NCBI RefSeq assembly: GCF_003574315.2
Contig: NZ_AP025739.1
Span: 3,844,001 to 3,908,000 of the forward strand
DNA: 64,000 nt
DNA from: Capsulimonas corticalis
GTDB taxonomy: Bacteria; Armatimonadota; Armatimonadia; Armatimonadales; Capsulimonadaceae
Direction: 5' to 3'
Shown: positions 7,012 to 46,355 of the stretch, in pieces
Numbering within the stretch: position 1 is the stretch's first letter
Layout of the letters: each line of letters begins with the position of its first letter
Translations under genes and position numbers: made by a program
Notes under the pieces: model-generated
What the model saw: only the letters and a program-made list of their open reading frames with translations
The model's database searches: none
Told to the model about the DNA's origin: nothing

Positions 7012-8172
7012 ATGCCTGATATGAGCAATGGTGTGAGGCTTCCGGCTGCCGAGCGGCTTGCCGCGGCGCTTTTGGGCCGGATTGAGCGGGGGGAGTATGC
7101 GCCGGGCGAGTGGCTGCCGACGGAGCGGGAGCTGGCGGCGGAGTTCCGCGCGGACCGGTCGACGATCCGTTCCGCGCTTTCGTCGCTGGCGGCGAAGGAT
7201 TTGATCGTGCGCGAGACCGGGCGTCGGCCGCGTGTCAGCCTGCGCCCGGCCGATGAAGCGGGCGACCAAAACTCGCGTGAGGCGAAGGTCGCGCTGCAAA
7301 CGCTGGCGGTGCTCTCGCCGCAGACCCCGCATTACCCGGCGTCGCCCTCCATTCAGCGCGGCGTGCTGCAAGTGCTGATCAACAAGGAAGCCCCGTACCG
7401 ATTGATCGTCTTCGATAACAACGCGGAGACGCGCGCCGAGACGATCCGTCGCGAGCGGCGCGCGCTGGAATCGATCCGGAACGAAGGCATCAGCGGCGTC
7501 ATCGTCTGGCACCAGGGCAACCTGCACACGCTTCCCGATTTGCGGCTTCTTCAGGAAGCGGGGATCCCGATGGTGCTGGTGGACCGGTGCGATCCGTCGT
7601 TCGCCTGCGACTTTGTCGGGATCGATAACTCGGCGGCGGCGCGCGAGGCGGTCACGCATCTGCTCGATCTGGGGCACCAGCGCGTCATGCATTTGACCAT
7701 GGACGATCCCACCATCACGGTTCGGGACCGCGAGCAGGGGTATCGTGACGCGATGATGTCGCACGGCATTCGCCCGGAGCCGGATTGGACCTACCGGATG
7801 TCGAACGCCGTGCATTTGCAGCCGCCCGTGACGAGCGCGGCCGATCACTTCCTGGGACTGGCGGAGCGGCCGACCGCCGTATTTGTCTTGAACGACCTGA
7901 TCGCGCATGAGTTCATGACGGAGCTTCAGGCGCGCGGCGTCCGCGTGCCCGAGGACATCAGCATCATGGGCTTCGACGATATGGATCGCCATTCGCTGCG
8001 CCCATCTCCATTGACCACCGTGCATCAGCCGTTTGAGCAGATGGGGGAGAAGGCCGTCGACCTGCTGCTCACCCGCCTCGCCCAGCCGGCGGGCGCTCCC
8101 GTCGCCCATCGTCACATTTTGCTGCCCACGCGATTGGTCATCCGCACGTCCTGCATCCCGCTTCTTCCATAG
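7012..8172 (+). CDS. GntR-type DNA-binding domain fused to LacI-type sugar-sensing domain
   Basis: 386 residues. Residues about 8-78 are a GntR winged helix (RLAAALLGRIERGEYAPGEWLPTERELAAEF, then STIRSALSSLAAKDLIVRETG). Residues about 95-386 are a periplasmic-binding-protein-like LacI sensor: VLVDR, DFVGIDNSAAAREAVTHLLDLGH, AVFVLNDLIAHEFM, and ISIMGFDDMDRHSLRPSPLTTVHQP. This AraR-like architecture typically represses sugar genes until a mono- or oligosaccharide binds. It lies directly upstream of the prepilin pair, rhamnosidase and ABC transporter on the same strand, so L-rhamnose or a rhamnoside is the likely effector (inference). Confidence 0.9.
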   Translation: MPDMSNGVRLPAAERLAAALLGRIERGEYAPGEWLPTERELAAEFRADRSTIRSALSSLAAKDLIVRETGRRPRVSLRPADEAGDQNSREAKVALQTLAVLSPQTPHYPASPSIQRGVLQVLINKEAPYRLIVFDNNAETRAETIRRERRALESIRNEGISGVIVWHQGNLHTLPDLRLLQEAGIPMVLVDRCDPSFACDFVGIDNSAAAREAVTHLLDLGHQRVMHLTMDDPTITVRDREQGYRDAMMSHGIRPEPDWTYRMSNAVHLQPPVTSAADHFLGLAERPTAVFVLNDLIAHEFMTELQARGVRVPEDISIMGFDDMDRHSLRPSPLTTVHQPFEQMGEKAVDLLLTRLAQPAGAPVAHRHILLPTRLVIRTSCIPLLP

Positions 8173-9786: not shown

Positions 9787-10668
9787 TTGCATACTGTTGG
9801 AAATCGAAGCCGTTCTGGTTTCACTCTGATCGAACTTCTCGTTGTTATCGCTATCATTGCGATTCTCGCCGCTATTCTTTTCCCCGTTTTTGCGAAGGCC
9901 CGTGAGAAGGCGCGCCAGATCTCCTGCGCGTCCAACGAACGGCAGATCGGTATCGGAATCCTTCAGTACGTGCAGGATAACGATGAAAATTTTCCGGCCG
10001 GCCGGAACGACCAGGGTCTTCAGCTTGGACAGGGATGGGCCGGGAAAGTATATCCCTACGTCAAGAGCACGCTGGTGTTCCACTGCCCGGATGATCCCAA
10101 TCCTCCCCAGAGAGACGCCGTCAACTATCAAATTTCCTATACCGCCAACTTCAACTTCCTGCGAACGGATGGCGGATCCACGGGCGATCCCCACTTTGGA
10201 CAAGCGCTGGCGGTGTTGAGTTCGCCCGCGAAGACCGTCTTCTTGTGTGAATCGAATGGCGATTTCGCGAAATTGCTGGACATCAATGAAGGCAACGGTA
10301 ATGGGATTCAGTCGGCGACGACGAACGGCAGCCTCGACGGCAGCATTTATGCAGCCGCGAATTATGGGAAAGGCGGCTCGATGGCGACCGGTTGCTTGGG
10401 CGGCGTCGACTGCTCGGCGAATGTTGGTGGCCCTGGGGGGAATGGCTTCCTTGCCAAGACCGGGCTTCACACCGATGGCTCCAACTACATGATGTGCGAC
10501 GGCCACATCAAGTGGTATCGCGGCTCGCAGGTTTCCGGCGGATCCAACGCTCTTGCCGCGGACTGCCAGCAAGGCGGCGGCGGCGGGGCGGAATGCGCGG
10601 GATCCGATAACACTGCCGCCGAAGGTACGGAAGGCACACGTTTCGCCATCACATTCAGCGTCAAATAA
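9787..10668 (+). CDS. DUF1559 prepilin-like protein (TTG start)
   Basis: 293 residues from TTG at 9787, chosen because AAAGGAG lies 5 bp upstream and the promoter at 9652-9680 excludes an earlier start. The leader is short ([10 protein letters not shown]) before [16 protein letters not shown], giving a normal prepilin cleavage site. The rest closely matches the 8619 protein, including [25 protein letters not shown] and [18 protein letters not shown], which indicates a tandem duplication. It is followed by a hairpin at 10709-10752 and then the rhamnosidase. Confidence 0.92.
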
Positions 10669-28074: not shown

Positions 28075-28093
28075 CAAGAAACTATGTTTCTTG
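28075..28093 (+). promoter_or_regulatory. Operator-like palindrome CAAGAAAC-TAT-GTTTCTTG
   Basis: A perfect 8-bp-arm inverted repeat just downstream of the predicted transcription start. The same core (AGAAAC-N3-GTTTCT) recurs at 39920-39934, and weaker forms at 32941-32955 and 36289-36300. It is suited to a dimeric repressor acting as a roadblock. Confidence 0.6.
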
Positions 28094-28181: not shown

Positions 28182-30212
28182 ATGAATTTCCATCATCGTC
28201 ATCGCGCCGCCAGGGCGGCCTCCGCGTTTGTCCTTCTTTGCGCCGCCGCTTCCACAACTCACGCCGATATCGATACTCTCAGGGCGCCATTTTTGGCGTC
28301 CCTGTTTAGCGATAATATGGTGCTCCAGCGGGGACAGAGCGATCCGGTTTGGGGGTGGACGACGCCCGGCGCCAAAGTCACGGTTCGTATCGCCGGCAAG
28401 CAGGCCGTCGCCATGGCGGACGCGAAGGGCAAGTGGGTGGCGAAGCTTCCGCCGCTGCCCGTGGGCGGTCCGTATACGCTGGACGTTTCTGGATCGAACC
28501 AGGAGAGCGCGAAATGCTCCAATGTCCTGGTGGGGGATGTCTGGGTCTGCTCGGGGCAGTCGAACATGGAGTTCGGCATGGGATATACGCGGGACTCGCT
28601 TCAGGAGATCGCGGCGGCGAACTATCCCAACATTCGCCTGATGGTCGTGCCGCACAATCTACAAATCGATCCGCAGGCGCGGACGAACACGTCCTGGGCA
28701 GTCTGCACGCCGGCGGCGGTGAATACGCAGAATGGGACCTGGAACGGATTCAGCGCGGTGGGGTACTTCTTTGGCCGCGAGCTTTACAATGATCTGCACA
28801 CGCCCATCGGGTTGATCCAATCGGCCTTTGGCGGCACGAACGCGGAATCGTGGACGAGTTATGAGGCGCTCAAGGCTCATGTACCCGACTTCAAGCCGCA
28901 GCTGGCGCAATTGGACGCCGAGCGGGCGATCGGCGCGCCCGGCTGGGCGGAGCGTCAGGTGGCGAAGGACAACGCCTGGTATCAGCAAAATGATCCGGGA
29001 TCGAAGGAGGGACTGGGGTGGGCGGACTCGAGCCTGGATGTCTCTGCGTGGCCTGTGATGGCGCTGCCGGGATACTGGGAAACCAAAGGCGTTCCCGAGC
29101 TGGCGAACTTCGATGGCGTCGTGTGGTTTCGCCGGGAGTTCGACGTTCCCGAGGACGCCGTTGGAAAAGACATCACGCTCCACTTCGCGGTGGACGATGA
29201 CGATACGGCGTGGATCAACGGCGTCAATGTGGGCGCGACGGATCTCTTCACCGTACAGCGCGCCTATAAAATCCCGCACGGCGTGCTGAAGGCCGGCCGC
29301 AATACGATCGCGATCCGCGTGCTGGATACGGGCGGGGGCGGCGGCGTTTACGGCGATCCGAGCTCGCTTTCGCTGTCGGTCGATGGCGGAACGGATATCC
29401 CGCTGGCCGGCGACTGGCGCTATAAAATCAGCGCTTCCATCTACATGGCCAGCGCGCCGCCGCCGCTGGCGATCGAAGCGAACGCGAACTTCCCGACGAT
29501 GCTTTACAATGGCATGATCAGCCCGATCGCGACCTACGGCGTCAAAGGCGTCCTCTGGTATCAAGGCGAAAACAACGCGAACAAACCCGGGCAGTACCGG
29601 TCGCTGCTGCCGGCGCTGATCGGCGACTGGCGCGCGAAGTGGGGGCAGGGCGACTTTCCGTTTTTGATCGTCCAGCTCGCCGGCTTCCAAAACTCGGGGC
29701 AGGCGGACGATCCGTCCTGGCCGGAGCTGCGTGACGCCCAGTGGAACACCGCCCGGACCGTAAAGAACGCGGGGATCGTGACCGCGATCGATATCGGCGA
29801 GCCGACCGACATCCATCCGAAGAACAAGCAGGAAGTGGGTCGTCGTCTCGCGCTGGTCGCCCGCCATCAGGTCTATCATGAGAAGATCGAAGACTCAGGA
29901 CCTGTATACCAGTCGATGAAAACGGAAGGCGACACGGTTCGTCTGACGTTCACTCATACCGGCGGCAAGATGACCACGAAAAACGGCGATCCTCTCACCG
30001 GCTTCATCATCGCCGGCGCGGATCGCAAATGGCTGCCCGCGACCGCGCGGATCGATGGGGACACAATCGTCGTGTCGTCGCCAGATGTCAAATCGCCGGT
30101 GGCCGTGCGCTACTCCTGGGCCGGCTATTCCCAGAGCAACCTCATCGGCGCCGCCGGTCTGCCCGCGTTCCCGTTCCGCACGGACAACTGGCCGTATTTG
30201 ACGAAGGAGTAA
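28182..30212 (+). CDS. Secreted sialate-O-acetylesterase-type SGNH esterase
   Basis: 676 residues with a signal peptide (to about residue 29, STTHA). It belongs to the SASA (DUF303) group that removes O-acetyl groups from sugars. Landmarks are FSDNMVLQRGQ, the nucleophile block VCSGQSNMEFGM, SAFGGTNAES, and LWYQGENNANKPGQYR. An inserted galactose-binding-like beta-sandwich lies at about residues 280-425 (FDGVVWFRREFDVPEDA, DDDDTAWINGVNVG), as in many family members. Because the neighbouring genes are mannanases and other hemicellulases, the substrate is more likely acetylated mannan or xylan than sialic acid (inference). Confidence 0.9.
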   Translation: MNFHHRHRAARAASAFVLLCAAASTTHADIDTLRAPFLASLFSDNMVLQRGQSDPVWGWTTPGAKVTVRIAGKQAVAMADAKGKWVAKLPPLPVGGPYTLDVSGSNQESAKCSNVLVGDVWVCSGQSNMEFGMGYTRDSLQEIAAANYPNIRLMVVPHNLQIDPQARTNTSWAVCTPAAVNTQNGTWNGFSAVGYFFGRELYNDLHTPIGLIQSAFGGTNAESWTSYEALKAHVPDFKPQLAQLDAERAIGAPGWAERQVAKDNAWYQQNDPGSKEGLGWADSSLDVSAWPVMALPGYWETKGVPELANFDGVVWFRREFDVPEDAVGKDITLHFAVDDDDTAWINGVNVGATDLFTVQRAYKIPHGVLKAGRNTIAIRVLDTGGGGGVYGDPSSLSLSVDGGTDIPLAGDWRYKISASIYMASAPPPLAIEANANFPTMLYNGMISPIATYGVKGVLWYQGENNANKPGQYRSLLPALIGDWRAKWGQGDFPFLIVQLAGFQNSGQADDPSWPELRDAQWNTARTVKNAGIVTAIDIGEPTDIHPKNKQEVGRRLALVARHQVYHEKIEDSGPVYQSMKTEGDTVRLTFTHTGGKMTTKNGDPLTGFIIAGADRKWLPATARIDGDTIVVSSPDVKSPVAVRYSWAGYSQSNLIGAAGLPAFPFRTDNWPYLTKE

Positions 30213-31886: not shown

Positions 31887-32780
31887 TTATTTTACGCTGA
31901 AGGTGCCGATAAAATTCTCCGGAGCCTGTCCCATATAGCCGGTGCCGGCGGCGTCAAATGCGCCTTGCTTGTCGTTTGGCGCATTGTTCGGGTCGCCAAG
32001 GGCTGCTTGATTTCCGTCATTATAACCAGAAGAGATTTGCTGCGCTCGCGTGTATTTGACATGACCATCAGAGAACGCAAAGTTTGCGCCGTCGGTATGG
32101 ACGGGCGCTAATAGGAACGCTCCATAATTCGTGCGAGGCGGCTGTCCAAGACCGATTGTCGCCGTTTTTCCGCAAACATATTTCGCGTTGATCGATTGGT
32201 CGATCCATCCAGCGGAATTGTCGCCGCCGTTTCCGGAAGGTGAAAAATGGAATGTTCCAGCAGCTCCGCCCGTCAGACCGGAATCGAGATTGATATCCGT
32301 AATCGGAGCTTGAGCGCCTTGAGTTTCAAACAAAGCGACCGTGGAAGCGGGAGCTCCAAACGACGCCAGCGTTGTTCCCGATCCACTGGCTCCGCCTCCA
32401 GAGTTATAAGCGTAGTTCAAGTTCAGCCCATAAGATACGGGGTAGAGGGTGTTGCCGCTTGCGTCTGTTGTAACTCCGGTGGGATCATCTGGACAGTGGA
32501 AAACGCCGGTACTCTTGATATAAGGATACATTTTTCCCGCCCAGCCCATGCCAATGCCTAGCCATCCAGACGCTGGAAACGTTTCGTCGTTGTCTTGCAC
32601 ATATTGCAGTAAGCCCAAGCTCAGTTGTTTGAGATTGGAAGAGCAGCTAATTTGACGCGCTTTCTCGCGTGCTTTCGCAAATACCGGAAAGAGGATCGCG
32701 GCAAGAATGGCAATGATAGCGATAACAACGAGCAGCTCAATGAGTGTAAAGCCACGATGAGAAGATGAAGACTGTTGCAT
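31887..32780 (-). CDS. DUF1559 prepilin-like protein
   Basis: 297 residues from ATG 32780 (AAAGGA 7 bp upstream). The leader [10 protein letters not shown] precedes [20 protein letters not shown], the type IV prepilin signal with Glu5. [20 protein letters not shown] and [18 protein letters not shown] are the DUF1559 landmarks. It has its own promoter (32895-32923) and terminator. It is flanked by the AGE epimerase upstream and the SGNH esterase downstream on the same strand. Confidence 0.92.
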
Positions 32781-32894
32781 GAATGTTTCCTTTGATTGGT
32801 GGTTATCCGGCGGATCGAGCAATGCAGTAGAGACGCTGATAGGTCAATGAAATTCTTTTGGTTTACTCATATCTAAATTGATAAAACCAATTGC

Positions 32895-32923: not shown

Positions 32924-32945
32924 GCAAAAAACGGCAAAACAGAAA

Positions 32946-34145
32946 CTATGTTGCTTTTTCGTGTTTGTTCGGCAAAGCAATGATCTCCAGGCACATATTT
33001 ACGGAGTGATAGTCGAGTTTCCAGCAGTTGCCTTTATCGTGGACGCGTCCCGTTCCATCGCAGCTGAGCGATGCGAAGAGGCCGCCATAGATGGGATCGA
33101 CAAAGCTGTGCTGGTAGAAGTCGAGCGTTCGGCGCAGGGGGCGCGCGGCGTTTGGGAGGTGATGGGGATGAACATAGCGCTGCATGGCCCGGATCGCCTC
33201 GCACTGGGGCCAGAGTTCTTTCTGGGGCGCCGTCAGTCGCCCGTCCGGGTCGCAGGCTTCCCACACGCCGCCGTCGGTATCGACGCCGCGACTCAGCGCC
33301 GTCTCCAGGAATGCGCGGCCGGTCACGGCGGCCCAAGGCTCGCCGGTCAGCGCATACCAATCCGAGAGCAGCAGAGCCCATTCGAACTGGTGTCCAATAT
33401 TCAAAACACCACCCTGCTGGATTGGCAAAGGCGCCCAGTTCGTATCGTAACATTCGATCAAGCGGCCGCGCTCAAAGCCGGGCAGGGAGCGCATAAAACT
33501 GAGGAGGCATGCGGCGCCTTGACGCGCGTCTCCGGACGGATCTACCGCGCAGAGCGCCATCAGCGCCTCGAAGAGATGCATGATCGGATTTTGTGATCGC
33601 ATCTCGTCTGGAGGATTCGGGGTTCCCACACGCCAGAGGACGCCGCCCAGGCGATCCACGAACGCGCCGTCGGTGAACCGCCATGCGGCGATCGCCTGCG
33701 CGGCCAATGAGGGACGATCGAGGGCTTTGGCGGCGGCGCTCAGCGCGAGGATCGCAAAGGCGTGCCCGTAGCTGTCCAGAGTCTCCTCAATCACGCGGCC
33801 TTCGTGGGAAATGGCCCAGCAGTAGCCGCCGTCCGGGCGTGCGAAGTACCGGGCGAGGGCTTCCGCGCCGCGCTCGGCGGCGGCGGCGTAACGCATCTCT
33901 CCAAAGACTTCAAATCCCCGGCTGAAGTTATAGATCAAGCGGCACTGGCTGACCAGCGTCGCCCCCGAGGATTCTCGTCTGCGCCATTGCCGGTCGAGGT
34001 CGGGATAAAAGATCCCCGTTTTGGCGGAGGCGGCGCCGAGCCAGAAGTCGAGCAGTGAGCGCAGGAGCGACGCGGCCCAGGCTGCGTCGCTCCCCGCGCC
34101 GCCGGCGGAGATGTCCGGCGTCGTTTCGGAGAATGCGCTTTGCAT
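32946..34145 (-). CDS. AGE-family epimerase/isomerase (N-acylglucosamine 2-epimerase fold)
   Basis: 399 residues, no signal peptide, so cytoplasmic. Family features of the (alpha/alpha)6 barrel are LIYNFSRGFEVFG, DSYGHAFAILALSAA, QNPIMHLFEALMAL, NIGHQFEWALLLSDWY and the C-terminal WKLDYHSVNM, which supply the conserved His residues. The family includes mannose isomerases, cellobiose 2-epimerases and mannobiose 2-epimerases. Its ATG overlaps the stop of the GH26 mannanase gene (TAATG), so the two are translationally coupled and a mannose or mannobiose substrate is likely (inference). Confidence 0.85.
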   Translation of the reverse strand: MQSAFSETTPDISAGGAGSDAAWAASLLRSLLDFWLGAASAKTGIFYPDLDRQWRRRESSGATLVSQCRLIYNFSRGFEVFGEMRYAAAAERGAEALARYFARPDGGYCWAISHEGRVIEETLDSYGHAFAILALSAAAKALDRPSLAAQAIAAWRFTDGAFVDRLGGVLWRVGTPNPPDEMRSQNPIMHLFEALMALCAVDPSGDARQGAACLLSFMRSLPGFERGRLIECYDTNWAPLPIQQGGVLNIGHQFEWALLLSDWYALTGEPWAAVTGRAFLETALSRGVDTDGGVWEACDPDGRLTAPQKELWPQCEAIRAMQRYVHPHHLPNAARPLRRTLDFYQHSFVDPIYGGLFASLSCDGTGRVHDKGNCWKLDYHSVNMCLEIIALPNKHEKAT

Positions 34146-36120: not shown

Positions 36121-36285
36121 AATAAATCCTTTCGATGCTGTCATGGAGGGAACTTCCGCCCGAGGGTCGGACATTAACGGACGCTGTATATGTATGATGT
36201 TAAAGTCCTTTCTTACTGCGACGTCTTTGTACCGTTGCAAGTACTGTATTGCGGTTAATGCAAATGCATACGACATCATTGATCG

Positions 36286-36318: not shown

Positions 36319-37419
36319 TCACACGGGCGGCGCCGCCGTTGTCTGTCGTACGACCAGCTTTGTCGGCAGCTGCTCGAACACCGGCGGGTGCGCGGCCTCG
36401 CCTTGCCGCGCGGCGGCGATGCGCGCATGCAGACGTCGTACGGCGGCTTCTCCCATGGCGCGCATGTCCACACGCACGGAGGAGAGGGGCGGTTCGAGCT
36501 CCGCGCTGGTGTCCGCATCGTCGTAACCGATCACGCTCATGGCGCCGGGGATGGAGATATCGAGCGCGCGGCAGGCGCGCAGCACCAGGGCGGCGTGATC
36601 GTCGTTCGCGCAGACAAACGCCGTGGGGCGGCCCGGCTTTTTCAGGAAGGCGACGACTTCCTGCATGGAGCGCTCACGCAGCTCCTTGCCCGACAGCGTT
36701 TCATTCTCTCCGTCTCCGGGCGTGCCCACCGCGACGATATGATCGTGGTTGATCGCGACGCCAGCGTGGAAGTGCGCGCAGACAAATCCGTTCAGCCGAT
36801 CGCGGAATGTCAGCTCGGTGGCCCTGGATGTCAGGAAGCCGATATGCCGATGTCCCAGATCCAAAAGGTGCTTGGTCGCTTCATAGGCGCCGCCGAAGCC
36901 GTCTGAGAAGACGCTGTCGTGCCGTCCGCGGATGTCCCGGTTGTCGAGCAGCACGATATGCGGCACATACTGTACGAATGTTTCCAGAATATCCGCGTCG
37001 GCCGCGCCGACCAGCAGCATCCCCGCGACCGCCTGCTCCCGCACCATCGGCGGCAGCTCCTGCGACGGCTTGTGGCGGTGTGTCGTGCTCAGCAGCATGT
37101 GCATGCCCAGCCGCGCCGCTTCGGCCTGAGCTCCGTCCAGCACCGCGCTGTAGAACCCGTTCGAGGGCAGCGTGTCGGAGGGGACGTACGCGAAATATTC
37201 AAACCCGATCGTCGTGCTGACCGAAGCGTTCGGGGCGGCGACGGTGCGGCTGCGCGTAGTTCGTGAAGCCAGGCCCCGTGGGCGGTAGTTCAGCCGCTCG
37301 GCGATTTCCAAAACGCGACCCCGTGTTTCGTAGCTCAGCGCGGACGTCTCGGTGAAGCTCCGCGATACGGTCGCGGTTGAGACTCCTGCAAGCTTTGCAA
37401 CATCGTGGATTGTGGCCAT
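36319..37419 (-). CDS. LacI-family transcriptional regulator
   Basis: 366 residues. The N-terminal helix-turn-helix is canonical (MATIHDVAKLAGVSTATVSR), followed by the hinge helix NYRPRGLASRTTRS. The sensor domain spans about residues 70-345, with GMLLVGAADADI, IVLLDNRDIRGRHDSVFSDG, AFVCANDDHAALVL and MSVIGYDDADTSAELEPPLSSVRVDM. Such repressors release DNA on binding a sugar. It is divergent from the secreted GH26 and upstream of the prepilin-GH26-AGE genes, so control of the mannan locus, perhaps through the repeated TGCAAA words at 37462-37658, is likely (inference). Confidence 0.95.
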   Translation of the reverse strand: MATIHDVAKLAGVSTATVSRSFTETSALSYETRGRVLEIAERLNYRPRGLASRTTRSRTVAAPNASVSTTIGFEYFAYVPSDTLPSNGFYSAVLDGAQAEAARLGMHMLLSTTHRHKPSQELPPMVREQAVAGMLLVGAADADILETFVQYVPHIVLLDNRDIRGRHDSVFSDGFGGAYEATKHLLDLGHRHIGFLTSRATELTFRDRLNGFVCAHFHAGVAINHDHIVAVGTPGDGENETLSGKELRERSMQEVVAFLKKPGRPTAFVCANDDHAALVLRACRALDISIPGAMSVIGYDDADTSAELEPPLSSVRVDMRAMGEAAVRRLHARIAAARQGEAAHPPVFEQLPTKLVVRQTTAAPPV

Positions 37420-37424
37420 GTCCT

Positions 37425-37453
37425 AAGATAACACAGGCTATGAAATTTGTCAA
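37425..37453 (-). promoter_or_regulatory. Promoter of the LacI-family regulator gene
   Basis: On the minus strand: TTGACA (37453-37448), 17 bp, TATCTT (37430-37425). The -10 ends only 5 bp before the ATG, so the transcript would be leaderless or nearly so. TGCAAA at 37462 lies just outside the -35, a position suited to autoregulation. Confidence 0.6.
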
Positions 37454-37646
37454 CCATTTTATGCAAACTATTTTAAATTTTTGCACGAACTATTTGCATT
37501 GCTTTTCAAACCGGACCGAATCACTTCCAGGGAAATTGTCCTGAGAGCGCCTGGAATTTTCCAGGAACGCAAGGAAAGAAGCAGGCGAGCACTGGTGCAA
37601 ATAAATTTATGCAATTTGCATTGAAAATTCACCGTGCAAATTGTTG

Positions 37647-37675
37647 TTGACATGCAAAACGTTCGGTGATATAAT
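37647..37675 (+). promoter_or_regulatory. Perfect consensus promoter of the secreted GH26 gene
   Basis: TTGACA (37647-37652), exactly 17 bp, TATAAT (37670-37675). A TGCAAA word (37653-37658) lies inside the spacer next to the -35 and another (37635-37640) just upstream, as expected for repressor control. Confidence 0.8.
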
Positions 37676-37838
37676 GGCCCCGGACCACACAAAAGCGTTT
37701 CGCCAGGGCCGTCTAAACCTGAAATGGTTCTTTTGATTCAAATGCAATGTAAATTGGATGAGCCCATGAACGCTGTCGTCCGCCGCTTTAGTTTTAATTG
37801 TTATAATCGGAACACAGTGATGTGGATAAGGAGACAAC

Positions 37839-39813: not shown

Positions 39814-39853
39814 TTTCACCCCAGCCACACAGAAATGTGAGGCTGGGGTGAAA
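39814..39853 (+). terminator. Terminator after the secreted GH26 gene
   Basis: A 13-bp stem (39814-39826 with 39841-39853) with an inner CACA/TGTG pairing lies 11 bp after the stop. Only a short AT run follows. Confidence 0.7.
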
Positions 39854-39889
39854 ATTCGTCACAAGAAAGCCAATCGGTAAAACTGATTG

Positions 39890-39918
39890 TTGACAGTGGG
39901 ACATATTTGTTTTATAAT
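39890..39918 (+). promoter_or_regulatory. Perfect consensus promoter of the 40027 gene
   Basis: TTGACA (39890-39895), exactly 17 bp, TATAAT (39913-39918). The spacer and -10 lie inside the large palindrome 39901-39953, so occupancy of that site should block transcription. Confidence 0.8.
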
Positions 39919-39953
39919 AAGAAACTTGGTTTCTATCGATAAAACAAATATGT
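39901..39953. repeat. Nested 53-bp palindrome overlapping a promoter
   Basis: Perfect 15-bp outer arms (39901-39915 with 39939-39953) and a perfect inner inverted repeat AGAAAC-TTG-GTTTCT (39920-39934) share exactly the same centre, base 39927. Only the 4-bp segments between the arms are imperfect. It covers the promoter spacer, the -10 and the first transcribed bases. Confidence 0.85.
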
Positions 39954-40026
39954 GATTGCTCTCATCGCAATATAAATGGATTTTATTGCGATTATTGATA
40001 TTCTGTCCCGATGAAGGAGACATAGC

Positions 40027-42027
40027 ATGACTGACATCTCAAGGGCGTTTCGGCGGCTCGCCGCCACCGTCGCGGCGGGAGCCGCCTTCGCCGCGCTGAC
40101 GCCCGCCGCCCAGGCCGACAATTACGCCTGCATCTTTTACTTTTCGAGTTTTGGGGATACGTTCTTCCAGCCGGGCAATCTCGCTCCTACGGGGGATTCG
40201 TGGATCATGCAGGGACAAAGCCCGGCGTACAGCCCCGGCGGCGGGTTAAGCAACTGGTGGGGCAAGCCGCTCTGGGCGGCGACCCATGGCGACGGCACGA
40301 TCAAAAACAACTATCGGTTCTATTTCAATGGCGATCCCGCGCAGACCAACAACGATCTGCTCGACTACCACGCCGACCTTTTGACGCGAATGGGCGTGGA
40401 CTTCGTCGTGCTGGACTTCACCAACGGCGCCGGCGACTTTCCCAACGGCCCGACGTATTTGACGGCGACCAAGGCGCTTTGCAACCGCTGGCAGGCGCGA
40501 ATCGCGGCCGGATTGCCCACGCCGAAAATCGTCTTTTTTGCCTACAATGAAGACACGCTCAACACGATCCAGAACACCTATTTCGCCAACTACGACCCAA
40601 ATCTGTTCTTCAACTATCTTGGGAAAAAGCTCGTCCTCGTCGCCCGTCCGAACATGAACCTGGGGCAGGGGGACGCCGGGCAGCCCGCCATTCCCACCAG
40701 CGGCGCATTCGCCAACTACACCTGCCGCCACACCTGGGGGCTTCAAACCGATGGCTCCTGCTGGCAGTTCAAAGTGGGGTCCAATACGCCGCCGCCCGCG
40801 TTTATGTATAACGGAGCGCCCGAGCAGATGTGCGCGCCGGTCTCCTCGCAATCCAGCACCATGACCACCGACGGCGTCAACCCCAGCCCCGGCGCGTTCG
40901 GCCGCAACGACGGCCAGTATTTCAACACCTATATGACGGCGGCGCAGCAAACAAAGCCGACCTTCACGTTCCTGCATTCCTGGAATGAATGGAACGCCGG
41001 CAATTTCGGCTCGCAGGGCGCTCCATACTTAGTGGACCAATGGCTCGAAGGTTACAGCTCGGATATCGAGCCGATGGCCGGCGGCCACGGTTACCAATAC
41101 TACGACTTGGCCGCGCAGCAAGTCGCCCGACTCAAGAGCAACTTCCCGGTCATCTCCGGCCAGTCCTATATGGTTTACAACCAGAACAGCGGCATGGCGC
41201 TCGATGTCCCCGGCGGCACGAATGTCCACGGGACACAGCTCCAGCAATGGACTCCCAACGGCGCGACCGCGCAGGCATGGACCTTCCACGACCTCGGCGA
41301 CGGCTACTGGGAGATCACCAGCGTCGTCAACGGCCTCGCCCTCGACGATTACGGCTGGGGAACGACCGACGGAACCGTGGTCGACCAATGGGACGCAAGC
41401 TCTTCGCCAGTCTCGTACGCCCAGCAATGGAGCCTGCGTCCGGCGGGCAACGGCTCCTGGAAGATCGTCAACCGCAACAGCGGCCTGACGCTCGGAATCG
41501 CCGGCGCGTCCACCACGGCGGGCGCCAAGACGATGCTTTGGGACGATAACGGCACGGCCGACCACAACTGGTTTCTCATGCCCTCCATCGCCGACGGCTC
41601 CTACAAGATCGTGGCGACCACCACCGGCAACGCGCTCGACGTCGCCAATCTCAACAACGGGGCGCTCGCGCAGCTTCACCCTTACGTCAGCGGCGCGAAT
41701 CAAAAATGGAGCATCCACAACCTGGGCAACGGCAGCTTCTCCATCCGCAACGCCAACGGACGCTCACTCGACTGCATCGGCTGCTCGCCCGCCAACGGAA
41801 CACAAACCGAACTTTACGACTACTGGGGCGGCCCCTGCCAGCAATGGACCATTACGCCAACACCCGGCGGCGCGTACCGAATCAGTACGGCCAATCCCAA
41901 GACCGATGGAACGCACGACGTCCTCGACGGCGCGGGCTGCTCCGGCGCGTCCGGAGCCAATGTGCTCCTTTGGACCTGGGGCGGCGGCGGTTGCCAGCAG
42001 ACGTGGTACATACAGCCGGCGAATTAA
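40027..42027 (+). CDS. Secreted protein with unassigned TIM-barrel-like catalytic domain and ricin-B lectin modules
   Basis: 666 residues after AAGGAG-N8-ATG, with a signal peptide ending AAQA near residue 30. Residues 31-365 form a domain that I cannot place in a glycoside hydrolase family. It has the look of a TIM barrel: strand VDFVVLDFTNG with Asp130, KIVFFAYNED, and FLHSWNEWNAGNFG with Glu321, a position reminiscent of GH99/WbsX-like enzymes. Residues from about 375 contain two ricin-B lectin modules (MVYNQNSGMALDVPGGTN, SIRNANGRSLDCIGC, GGPCQQW). A paralogue with the same architecture lies at 46386. The setting suggests an extracellular glycosidase acting on hemicellulose (inference). 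Confidence 0.75.
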   Translation: MTDISRAFRRLAATVAAGAAFAALTPAAQADNYACIFYFSSFGDTFFQPGNLAPTGDSWIMQGQSPAYSPGGGLSNWWGKPLWAATHGDGTIKNNYRFYFNGDPAQTNNDLLDYHADLLTRMGVDFVVLDFTNGAGDFPNGPTYLTATKALCNRWQARIAAGLPTPKIVFFAYNEDTLNTIQNTYFANYDPNLFFNYLGKKLVLVARPNMNLGQGDAGQPAIPTSGAFANYTCRHTWGLQTDGSCWQFKVGSNTPPPAFMYNGAPEQMCAPVSSQSSTMTTDGVNPSPGAFGRNDGQYFNTYMTAAQQTKPTFTFLHSWNEWNAGNFGSQGAPYLVDQWLEGYSSDIEPMAGGHGYQYYDLAAQQVARLKSNFPVISGQSYMVYNQNSGMALDVPGGTNVHGTQLQQWTPNGATAQAWTFHDLGDGYWEITSVVNGLALDDYGWGTTDGTVVDQWDASSSPVSYAQQWSLRPAGNGSWKIVNRNSGLTLGIAGASTTAGAKTMLWDDNGTADHNWFLMPSIADGSYKIVATTTGNALDVANLNNGALAQLHPYVSGANQKWSIHNLGNGSFSIRNANGRSLDCIGCSPANGTQTELYDYWGGPCQQWTITPTPGGAYRISTANPKTDGTHDVLDGAGCSGASGANVLLWTWGGGGCQQTWYIQPAN

Positions 42028-42310: not shown

Positions 42311-44194
42311 ATGTCCCTCGCTTCTATCCTGGGCGTCCCCAGAACTCTTCGCCTCGGCCGCTCGGTCGCCGCCGCCATGCTTGGCGTCTCCGTGCTCGGC
42401 GGCGTAACGGCCGTCACCGCGCCGGCCGCGCGGGCGTTTACCAATCCCGTTTATAGCTCGGCGGACCCATTCGTCACCTACCAAAACGGCGTGTATCTGA
42501 TGCTCGGCACCAACTATCGCGGCGATGTCACGATCGTTCGGTCGCCCACGATCGCCGGACTTTCTTCATCGCCCCAGCTCAGTGTCTTCGGCACGCCGCG
42601 CGGCTTTGAAGCGCCGGAGATCTACTGGCTGAACAACCATTGGTACATCTATTACACGGACTTCAACGCCAACGGCATGGTCGTCATCGAGAGCGACACC
42701 TCCGATCCGGCCGGCACATACCATTTTAAGAATGTGCTGACGACGAACTCTTACGACGGGACCATTTTGCAGGTCAACGGCGCGCTGTATCTGGTGAGCT
42801 CCACCTTCGGAGACTTGCAAGTGCAGACGATGTCCAATCCTTACACTGTCAGCAGTGGGATGACATCGATCGCGCATATGGACCAGCCCTGGGAATCGGC
42901 GGTGATCGAAGCGCCCAATCAGGTCAACCACAATGGGCAGACGTTTTTACTGTACTCGTCCGGCGTCTACAACCAGAACAACTACGCGGTTGGCGCGCTG
43001 CGCTATAACGGCGGCGATCCCACCAACGCGGCGTCGTGGACGAAGCTTTCCGGCCCGCGCTTTACCGGCAACGGCGGCGACGCCTTTGGGGCCGGCGCCG
43101 CGAGCGCTTTCTACTCGCCTGATGGAACCCAGACATGGTTTGCGTACTCGGCGTACAACGGGGCGCCGGTCGGCGACAACCGCACGATCCGCATCCAGCA
43201 GATGTCTTGGAACGGGGACAACACGCCGAATATGGGAGCGCCGGTCGGCTTGGGCGTCAACCTACCGGAGCCGTCGAGCGGCGGGGCCGCAGCCTCCGTC
43301 TCCAACGGCGTCTACGAGATTCTCGCGAAGACGACGGGCAATGCATTAGATTGCACGGGCTGTGGCAACACCAATGGGACGCAGGTTGAGCTTTGGAACA
43401 CTCTGGGCGGCTCCTGCCAGCAATGGGCGGTCTCCTACAAAGGCGGCGGCGCATACTCCGTGCGCACCATCAATCCCGACGGCAGCGTTGGACGCTCGCT
43501 CGACGCCACCGGATGCTCGCCCAACGACGGGACCCAAGTTGAGCTCTGGGATTTTAGCTTCGCTCCCTGTCAGCAATGGCAGATCAACCCGCAGCCCGAT
43601 GGATTCTTCAACATCGCCACCAACCAGGCCAAGTCTGACGGCACGCATGACGTACTGGACGGCAACGGCTGCTCGGGTGCGGCGGGAACGCATGTGATTC
43701 TGTGGTCGTGGGGCGGAGGCGGCTGCCAGCAGGAGTGGCAGTTCGCGCCGATCAACACGCCGGCGATCGTGTCGGGCGCTTACTACACGCTGACAAACGT
43801 GGCGGCGGGCTTGAACCTGGACGATCCCAACGGAACGAATGCGGCGGGAACAAAGGTCCAGCTGTTCCCGGCGAACGGCGCGACGGCTCAGAACTGGAAG
43901 CTGACGCGTCAGGCGGACGGCAACTACACGCTGACCAATCAGGCGGGCGGTTTGAACCTCGACGATCCCAACGGCCTGGGGGCTGGCACGCTCCAGCAGA
44001 TCTGGCCGGCGAACGGGGCAAGCGCGCAGGAATGGAAGCTGACGGCGTCCGGCAGCGGCGCCTACACGCTGACGAATGCGGCGACCAATCTCAACTTGGA
44101 CGATCCGAACGGCGCGAATACCGCTGGGACTCAACTTCAACTCTGGCCGTCAAACGGGGCGACGCCCCAGCAGTGGAGACTGACGCCGCAGTAA
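42311..44194 (+). CDS. Secreted GH43-like glycosidase with ricin-B lectin modules
   Basis: 627 residues with a signal peptide ending ARAF near residue 38. Residues about 40-320 resemble the five-bladed beta-propeller of GH43 (arabinofuranosidase/xylosidase group). The expected acidic residues are in YSSADPFVTYQNGVYLM, SYDGTILQVNGALYLV and AVIEAPNQVNHNGQTFLLY. From about residue 330 there are two ricin-B-type modules with GNALDCTGCGNTNGTQVELW and repeated LNLDDPNG-x-N-x-AGT elements. Its 3' 890 bp is almost identical at DNA level to the 3' part of the next gene. The start follows a weak AGGAGA site 10 bp upstream. Confidence 0.85.
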   Translation: MSLASILGVPRTLRLGRSVAAAMLGVSVLGGVTAVTAPAARAFTNPVYSSADPFVTYQNGVYLMLGTNYRGDVTIVRSPTIAGLSSSPQLSVFGTPRGFEAPEIYWLNNHWYIYYTDFNANGMVVIESDTSDPAGTYHFKNVLTTNSYDGTILQVNGALYLVSSTFGDLQVQTMSNPYTVSSGMTSIAHMDQPWESAVIEAPNQVNHNGQTFLLYSSGVYNQNNYAVGALRYNGGDPTNAASWTKLSGPRFTGNGGDAFGAGAASAFYSPDGTQTWFAYSAYNGAPVGDNRTIRIQQMSWNGDNTPNMGAPVGLGVNLPEPSSGGAAASVSNGVYEILAKTTGNALDCTGCGNTNGTQVELWNTLGGSCQQWAVSYKGGGAYSVRTINPDGSVGRSLDATGCSPNDGTQVELWDFSFAPCQQWQINPQPDGFFNIATNQAKSDGTHDVLDGNGCSGAAGTHVILWSWGGGGCQQEWQFAPINTPAIVSGAYYTLTNVAAGLNLDDPNGTNAAGTKVQLFPANGATAQNWKLTRQADGNYTLTNQAGGLNLDDPNGLGAGTLQQIWPANGASAQEWKLTASGSGAYTLTNAATNLNLDDPNGANTAGTQLQLWPSNGATPQQWRLTPQ

Positions 44195-44206
44195 TCATGC
44201 TCGCAA

Positions 44207-44240
44207 CCGCCGCGCCGATATTTTCATATCGGCGCGGCGG
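44207..44240 (+). terminator. Terminator-like hairpin after the GH43-like gene
   Basis: A perfect 14-bp GC-rich stem (44207-44220 with 44227-44240) with a TTTTCA loop, 12 bp after the stop. No T-run follows; the second large palindrome starts immediately after it. Confidence 0.65.
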
Positions 44241-44290
44241 CTTGATATACGCATGCCCGAATCCTAATATTCGGGCATGCGTATATCAAG
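44241..44290. repeat. Perfect 22-bp-arm inverted repeat before the SGNH esterase gene
   Basis: The arms at 44241-44262 and 44269-44290 are perfectly complementary with a 6-nt loop. It directly abuts the preceding hairpin and ends 31 bp before the ATG at 44322. It could be a regulatory site, a second terminator, or a structure in the leader. Confidence 0.8.
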
Positions 44291-44321
44291 CCAAATTGCA
44301 CGGTCAGAGAGGACGGAAATC

Positions 44322-46355
44322 ATGGCAAGCATCGCGACATTGTGGTCTCGGCTGGCAATTGTTGGACCTTTGGCGTGTCTGGGAATCGGCATGGCCCAGC
44401 CCCCGGCGGCGTCGGCCGCCGCGCCCACGCGGATCATGCCGCTGGGCGACTCGGTTACCGATGGCTGGACGCCCGAGCCGGGCGGCTATCGCATTCAGCT
44501 TTGGAACGATATCGTCAACAGCGGCGAGGTCGCCGAATTTGTCGGTTCGCAATTCAACGGTCCAGCGGCGCTTGGCTCCCATCACCATGAGGGGCATGCC
44601 GGCTGGACCACGAGCGATATCGCCGGGCAGGTGAGCGGCTGGATGGCGGCGTACGCGCCGCAGATCGTCCTTCTGCAAATCGGCACGAACGACATCAACA
44701 TGAACAAAGATCCGGCGGGCGCGCCCAGCCGCCTCAGCGGCATCATCGATCAGATCTGCACCCAGCTTCCGGCGGGCGGTAAAGTGTTCGTCACAACGCT
44801 CACGCCGGAATCCGATCCGAACTTCAACAATCAGATCCTCAATTTCAATAATCAGCTTCCGGGCATTGTCCAGAGCAAGCAGAGCGTCGGCAAGCCTGTG
44901 TTTCTGGTGGATCAGTACCATACGATCACGACCGCGGACCTCGCCGATGGAACCCATCCCACCCCCGCCGGCTACTCCCGCATGGGCGACGCCTGGTTCA
45001 GCGCCATCCAGTCGTCGGTCGCGTCCGGCGGAACCGGCGTGAACGTCGCTGTCGGAAAGGCGGTGACCGCCTCCAGCTCCGGCGCGGGGCGCGCCGCCAG
45101 TTTGGCGGTTGACGCCAACTGTGGCACGGAGTGGACCGCCAACGGCAACATCCGTCCGTCCTCCCTCACCGTGGACCTGGGCGCCAATGTCAATATTTCG
45201 CGCGCGGAGACGCAGTTCGAGTTTGGCGACGGCGAGTTCTATCAGTATCGCATCGATTCTTCAACGGACGGCGTGAACTGGACAACCTACGCCGATCGCA
45301 CCGGCAACACGGCGCCGACGTCGCTCTATGTGGACAACAATCCGGTTACCGCGCGCTATTTCCGGGTTACGGGAACGGCGGCGCAAAATTCGGGAGATTG
45401 GATCGGTATTTCAGAATTCCAACTTTACAATGGAGCATCGACTGTCGCCGCTTCTTCATTGACTAACGGCGTCTATGAGATCCTCGCGAAGACGACGGGC
45501 AACGCATTAGATTGCACGGGCTGTGGCAACACCAACGGGACGCAGGTTGAGCTTTGGAACACACTCGGCGGCTCCTGCCAGCAATGGGCGGTCTCCTACA
45601 AAGGCGGCGGCGCATACTCCGTGCGCACCATCAACCCCGACGGCAGCGTTGGACGCTCGCTCGACGCCACCGGATGCTCGCCCAACGACGGGACCCAAGT
45701 TGAGCTCTGGGATTTTAGCTTCGCTCCCTGTCAGCAATGGCAGATCAACCCGCAGCCCGATGGATTCTTCAACATCGCCACCAACCAGGCCAAGTCTGAC
45801 GGCACGCATGACGTACTGGACGGCAACGGCTGCTCGGGTGCGGCGGGAACGCATGTGATTCTGTGGTCGTGGGGCGGAGGCGGCTGCCAGCAGGAGTGGC
45901 AGTTCGCGCCGATCAACACGCCGGCGATCGTGTCGGGCGCTTACTACACGCTGACAAACGTGGCGGCGGGCTTGAACCTGGACGATCCCAACGGAACGAA
46001 TGCGGCGGGAACAAAGGTCCAGCTGTTCCCGGCGAACGGCGCGACGGCTCAGAACTGGAAGCTGACGCGTCAGGCGGACGGCAACTACACGCTGACCAAT
46101 CAGGCGGGCGGTTTGAACCTCGACGATCCCAACGGCCTGGGGGCTGGCACGCTCCAGCAGATCTGGCCGGCGAACGGGGCAAGCGCGCAGGAATGGAAGC
46201 TGACGGCGTCCGGCAGCGGCGCCTACACGCTGACGAATGCGGCGACCAATCTCAACTTGGATGATCCGAACGGCGCGAATACCGCTGGGACTCAGATTCA
46301 GCTCTGGGCGTCGAATGGGGCGACGCCTCAGCAGTGGCGGCTAACGCCGCAGTAA
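44322..46355 (+). CDS. Secreted SGNH/GDSL esterase with discoidin and ricin-B lectin modules
   Basis: 677 residues from ATG 44322 (GAGAGGA 8 bp upstream); the signal peptide ends near ASAAA. Residues about 35-225 are an SGNH hydrolase: IMPLGDSVTDGW (nucleophile Ser), LLQIGTNDINMN (Asn block) and DGTHPTPAGYSRMG with the catalytic Asp/His. Such enzymes often deacetylate hemicellulose. Residues about 240-375 are an F5/8-type C (discoidin-like) sugar-binding domain (SLAVDANCGTEWTANG, ARYFRVTGTA). The remaining 300 residues are ricin-B modules nearly identical to those of the GH43-like protein upstream. Confidence 0.9.
   Translation: MASIATLWSRLAIVGPLACLGIGMAQPPAASAAAPTRIMPLGDSVTDGWTPEPGGYRIQLWNDIVNSGEVAEFVGSQFNGPAALGSHHHEGHAGWTTSDIAGQVSGWMAAYAPQIVLLQIGTNDINMNKDPAGAPSRLSGIIDQICTQLPAGGKVFVTTLTPESDPNFNNQILNFNNQLPGIVQSKQSVGKPVFLVDQYHTITTADLADGTHPTPAGYSRMGDAWFSAIQSSVASGGTGVNVAVGKAVTASSSGAGRAASLAVDANCGTEWTANGNIRPSSLTVDLGANVNISRAETQFEFGDGEFYQYRIDSSTDGVNWTTYADRTGNTAPTSLYVDNNPVTARYFRVTGTAAQNSGDWIGISEFQLYNGASTVAASSLTNGVYEILAKTTGNALDCTGCGNTNGTQVELWNTLGGSCQQWAVSYKGGGAYSVRTINPDGSVGRSLDATGCSPNDGTQVELWDFSFAPCQQWQINPQPDGFFNIATNQAKSDGTHDVLDGNGCSGAAGTHVILWSWGGGGCQQEWQFAPINTPAIVSGAYYTLTNVAAGLNLDDPNGTNAAGTKVQLFPANGATAQNWKLTRQADGNYTLTNQAGGLNLDDPNGLGAGTLQQIWPANGASAQEWKLTASGSGAYTLTNAATNLNLDDPNGANTAGTQIQLWASNGATPQQWRLTPQ

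Follow-up and report, generated by a model that had tools for sequence, protein, structure and literature searches.

RESULTS

The promoter of a lectin gene and its palindrome

The window, meaning the whole stretch of 64,000 nucleotides of the Capsulimonas corticalis genome analyzed here, carries at 40027 to 42027 on the plus strand a gene encoding a secreted protein that bears ricin-B lectin repeats at its C terminus and an N-terminal domain to which Pfam gave no name. The GH26 gene upstream of it ends in a hairpin of its own (39814 to 39853), probably serving processing or termination and separate from the palindrome described below. Downstream, the adjoining GH43 and GDSL genes (42311 to 46355) have near-identical long C-terminal ricin-lectin regions, which are probably the product of a recent duplication.

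The promoter of the 40027 gene is an exact consensus on the plus strand (39890 to 39918), with TTGACA at 39890 to 39895, TATAAT at 39913 to 39918, and a spacer of 17 nt. Upstream of the -35 lies CAATCGGTAAAACTGATTG (39871 to 39889), which includes TCGGTAAAACTRATT, a sequence common to this promoter and the one at G000:C1:7633.8 kb; a variant of it, AATCGRTAAAA, is found at the 57% paralogue at 6581.4 kb. Transcription is predicted to start at about 39925, a position inferred as about 7 nt past the -10. The leader has a second inverted repeat, ATCGCAATATAA/TTTTATTGCGAT, at 39964 to 39992. We rejected ATTGCGAT/ATCGCAAT as a leader motif when most of its AT-rich hits proved to be the VIAIIAIL codons of DUF1559 pseudopilins, but the repeat at 39964 to 39992 is still real.

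Overlying the promoter is a 53-bp palindrome whose 25-nt arms (39901 to 39925 and 39929 to 39953) pair at 21 of 25 positions about a center at 39927, which coincides with the predicted start. Its outer arms, ACATATTTGTTTTAT (39901 to 39915, reaching from the spacer to halfway into the -10) and ATAAAACAAATATGT (39939 to 39953, about +15 to +29), are complementary at 15 of 15 positions. At its core is AGAAACTTGGTTTCT (39920 to 39934, about -5 to +10), a putative LacI-type operator in which AGAAAC (39920 to 39925) and GTTTCT (39929 to 39934) pair 6 of 6. The four mismatched pairs separate the inner from the outer arms and lie beside and within the second half of the -10. The initial annotation had described the TTGACA-17-TATAAT promoter, the perfect 15-bp outer arms, the 6-bp inner arms, and the shared center at 39927, and all of these were confirmed exactly. 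Its further statement, that the spacer and the -10 lie within the outer arms, holds for the 12 spacer nucleotides nearest the -10 and for the first 3 bases of the -10 itself, but the AAT of the -10 falls in the mismatched stretch.

The palindrome against the background of the genome

An ideal promoter is routine in this genome, because perfect TTGACA-N16-18-TATAAT occurs 144 times in its 7.65 Mb, compared to once in the control. The palindrome, on the other hand, is not due to chance: given the local composition, a concentric 15-bp run has a probability of about 7e-9 per offset, or about 1e-5 over the 144 perfect promoters, and as a DNA hairpin the element folds at -14.6 kcal/mol (z = -8.0 versus shuffles).

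We also compared the element with 152 near-consensus promoters (at least 11 of 12 matches) from 1.64 Mb of the same genome, about a fifth of it. Its palindrome score ties for the top among them, and several of the other top promoter palindromes are paired or nested operators. The concentric layout of inner and outer arms was found in only two places in the 1.64 Mb, the other being absent from the highest-ranking promoter palindromes. Repressor operators usually lie around the transcription start, and in the interval from -10 to +29 of the predicted start the 152 promoters hold 22 palindromes with arms of at least 6, compared to 5 in shuffles. For very long palindromes, by comparison, no clear excess is seen at promoters over other AT-rich stretches; those in the latter are probably terminator-like hairpins. 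One more large palindrome, ATTTACTATGTATGCATATATAATGCATACATAGTAAAT, lies on a -10 near 9964 (L162), and at 44199 to 44292 there are two tandem long hairpins, perfect or near-perfect, the second with arms of more than 20 bp and with no obvious T run.

The inner palindrome in other promoters

The inner motif recurs. GAAACN3GTTTC is found 16 times in the genome (7.6 Mb), compared to 4 times for a reversed control; 7 of the 16 sites are in AT-rich promoter regions and most of the others are inside open reading frames. With a one-mismatch site at 32941 in the window, the promoter-region set comes to eight sites, which precede three esterase, cellulase, or lectin genes, three DUF1559 pseudopilin genes, one unnamed gene, and one LacI-family gene. 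The longer form AGAAAC-N3-GTTTCT is exact at 28077 and 39920 in the window and at 293674 and 7624488 in the genome, with near-matches that include 32941 in the window and 6823812, 7622720, and 7633785 elsewhere.

In the window, AGAAACTATGTTTCT (28077 to 28091) precedes a gene at 28182 for a SASA carbohydrate esterase, and AGAAACTATGTTGCT (32941 to 32955), the one-mismatch site, is upstream of a DUF1559 pseudopilin gene on the minus strand (31887 to 32822), whose promoter, downstream of AGAAACTATGTTGCT, reads by eye as TTGACA/TATACT. Outside the window, the site at 7624488 (7624.5 kb) precedes a gene for a GH5 cellulase with a ricin lectin, that at 7622720 (7622.7 kb) an unnamed protein gene, and those at 7633785 (7633.8 kb) and 6823812 (6823.8 kb) DUF1559 pseudopilin genes. 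The site at 7633.8 kb fills the spacer of a TTGACA-17-TATAAT promoter, the sites at 39920 and 7622.7 kb start immediately past the -10, and those at 28077 and 7624.5 kb lie further downstream.

These promoter-region locations and the linked functions of the targets fit a repressor operator. The case rests on where the sites are, because AGAAACN3GTTTCT with at most one mismatch is not commoner genome-wide than its control (28 versus 60), and both the motif set and the regulator proposed below are predictions formed after the data were seen. The earlier suggestion of a repressor operator over the promoter gains from the clustering of palindromes at predicted starts and from the recurrence of the inner motif in other promoters. 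The inner core is thus most likely, judged from sequence, an ordinary LacI-family repressor site common to several similar genes.

A candidate regulator

A domain search of the genome gave 56 matches for the LacI helix-turn-helix and 100 for the LacI-type sensor domain. One LacI-family gene carries an inner-type site in its own promoter. This gene (G000:C1:293735-294808) is about 3.6 Mb from the window, and ahead of its start codon at 293735 there is a 33-bp perfect palindrome, at 293674, around AGAAACCATGTTTCT. Autoregulation has been found for 72% of the LacI-family factors studied (PMC4052901). Coincidence has to be weighed against this: we estimate a probability of about 3% that, of the 16 sites, one would lie by chance no more than 150 bp upstream of any of roughly 100 LacI-type genes. 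A divergent LacI-family neighbor has its own AACCGGTTA sites in the same intergenic region. The promoters of genes for relatives of the 293735 protein in four other genomes (G002, G006, G015, and G018) contain GAAAC boxes (shuffle P ≤ 0.016), and paralogues of that protein are encoded at 4332.6 kb (57% identity), 4691.7 kb (44%), and 36319 in the window (40%). A literature search on LacI regulators in Armatimonadota returned nothing of use.

The hinge of LacI-family proteins normally inserts at the central CG of the operator, and CytR is not known to carry the usual LacI hinge motif. None of 17 proteins in the candidate's subgroup has the PN of the usual PN..A..L motif, while PN is present in 6 of the 7 other LacI proteins of the genome that were examined by eye (a strict pattern flagged 3 of the 7). 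LacI-family sites are even palindromes for 1251 of 1303 factors, odd ones accounting for about 4%, and have a central CG for 1173 of 1303 (PMC4052901). An even palindrome with a central CG is thus common among LacI-family sites but not required. The site described here is an odd palindrome centered on TTG, which fits a hinge-less factor. CytR is known to tolerate half-site spacings of up to three turns and uses TGCAA half-sites (PMC3454398). In the present set, the gap between half-sites is a constant 3 nt, but it appears by eye to vary in the promoters of relatives. The subgroup would fit a CytR-like manner of binding, a likeness that implies no claim of membership.

Among the promoters read for this LacI subgroup (37419 to 37453 in the window, and L218 to L231), 16 of 16 look by eye like TTGACA-17-TANNNT placed 5 to 9 nt before the start codon. 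The subgroup's regulators thus look leaderless in several genera.

DISCUSSION

Our preferred reading, to which we assign a probability of roughly 0.6, is that a LacI-family dimer at the inner palindrome represses the 40027 gene, the regulator being the 293735 protein or its 57% paralogue encoded at 4332.6 kb. AGAAAC-N3-GTTTCT (39920 to 39934) would be an operator overlapping the transcription start, and a dimer seated there would keep RNA polymerase off the consensus promoter; a sugar or glycan breakdown product would release it. The same regulator would control the scattered genes for secreted carbohydrate enzymes, lectins, and pseudopilins. On both sides of this core the outer arms would add symmetry, either by offering contacts to a second dimer or as a relic of hairpin-templated copying that began at the inner palindrome.

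The outer arms belong to this promoter only. They are absent from all other sites of the inner-site set, and a search for further copies of the whole element, which might have been mobile or repetitive, gave nothing but self matches in this genome and no match in 40 relatives. A single outer arm is no recurring motif either: it has 64 genome matches with up to three mismatches, compared to 46 for the control, and those with up to two share no promoter context. A further candidate motif, ATCGATAAAAC, had four matches without a common context. No orthologous promoter was found in the relatives searched, the best full-length matches of the 40027 gene being paralogues in its own genome. The comparison proposed in the initial annotation, of whether the arms are conserved along with the promoter, could accordingly be made with paralogues only. 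The 57% paralogue (6581.4 kb), read by eye, keeps the upstream AATCGRTAAAA...TTGACAG without the palindrome, and the 81% paralogue has no separate promoter.

Tentatively, then, the arms may be a mutational by-product: a nascent strand would have folded back at the inner palindrome and served as its own template, TATAAT being kept or regained on one side, and the inner site alone would be the operator. The confinement of the arms to this promoter and the palindrome-free 57% paralogue agree with such an event, as does the placing of the sole four mismatched pairs, exactly where the promoter needs AAT. The event is, however, undatable without close relatives, and it does not explain why 15 bp have stayed perfect.

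Selection for the arms is the slightly more doubtful converse, in which a tetramer or a pair of dimers on the same helix face would bind the whole 53 bp cooperatively as one composite operator. Neither the length of the arms nor their exact concentricity fits chance, and other promoters of the genome hold paired or nested operators at the start (two AAGCGCTT, two AACCGGTTA, and a nested CGTAAACGTTTACG palindrome). The spacing tolerance of CytR half-sites, up to three turns, is likewise compatible with a composite operator (PMC3454398). Yet other sites do not have the arms in common with this one, and TAAAAC, tried as a secondary half-site (7 versus 1.05 expected with this site included), had to be dropped because it ranks only 54th among 6-mers once this site is left out. 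It is unlikely that the hinge-less, CytR-like subgroup goes further and binds a 53-bp concentric operator of this kind, as two dimers or a tetramer, with the arms as half-sites of a second geometry.

We regard it as quite improbable that the palindrome is bound instead by either regulator named in the initial annotation, the LacI protein encoded at 36319 to 37419 on the minus strand or the GntR-LacI hybrid at 7012 to 8169. Both are encoded at the same locus as the palindrome, and the 36319 and 293735 proteins are paralogues with 40% identity. The promoter of the 36319 gene itself, however, has TGCAAA rather than GAAAC boxes (3 versus 0.36 expected), as does that of its relative in G008 (5 versus 0.42), and the hybrid has no GAAAC-N3-GTTTC in its promoter or in the adjoining one. 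In the other subgroup promoters read, neither box was clear. Since the GAAAC boxes go with relatives of the 293735 protein and the TGCAAA boxes with the 36319 protein, we infer that the former is the better candidate. TGCAAA/TTTGCA boxes are also numerous between the 36319 gene and the GH26 gene (37420 to 37838) and before a pseudopilin gene (36210 to 36280), and these are probable operators of the 36319 LacI protein.

Readings that dispense with a protein fare worst. The 5' mRNA hairpin raised in the initial annotation does not hold up: with the predicted start at the palindrome center, only the right arm would be transcribed, so the promoter's own mRNA cannot form the hairpin, and the leader from 39925 folds like its shuffles (z = -0.31). 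It is hardly more credible that read-through transcripts from the GH26 gene, which is on the same strand, fold the element into an RNA hairpin or terminator. An RNA stem with both arms included would be stable, but it is AT-rich, is followed by no T run on either strand, and is absent from the terminator scan list, and a separate hairpin already ends the GH26 gene. The least credible proposal is a supercoil-driven cruciform that turns the promoter off, for although the element is an AT-rich 53-bp inverted repeat with the DNA hairpin stability noted above (-14.6 kcal/mol, z = -8), its arms are interrupted by four mismatched pairs, and the recurrence of the inner site without outer arms points to a protein.

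The preferred reading, a LacI-family dimer at the inner palindrome, has parallels in known systems. As with LacI-family operators (lac O1; RegPrecise; PMC4052901), the palindrome overlaps the start, the targets include sugar enzymes, and a site precedes a gene for a regulator of the family; in contrast to them, the palindrome is odd and lacks a central CG, the regulator gene is far from most targets, and long extra arms are present here. Like CytR, the subgroup lacks the usual hinge and has half-sites without a CG center, and the TGCAA half-sites of CytR (PMC3454398) resemble those of the 36319 type; by eye, the spacing and orientation of the subgroup's half-sites appear to change in relatives. 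CytR, which is known for cooperating with CRP, controls nucleoside genes, and the predicted targets here are mostly glycan-enzyme genes. Dual or nested operators that use two dimers, as in the looping of lac and gal, also place symmetric elements on either side of a promoter, but the arms here form one concentric inverted repeat and do not repeat the inner operator.

In sum, these analyses offer a testable candidate pair of operator and regulator for genes of glycan enzymes, in a genome that has received little study. They would also connect a LacI subgroup without the usual hinge to two distinct half-sites, GAAAC and TGCAAA. As for the outer arms, they lend themselves well to the question of whether a near-perfect inverted repeat at a promoter owes its existence to selection or arises as a by-product of replication.
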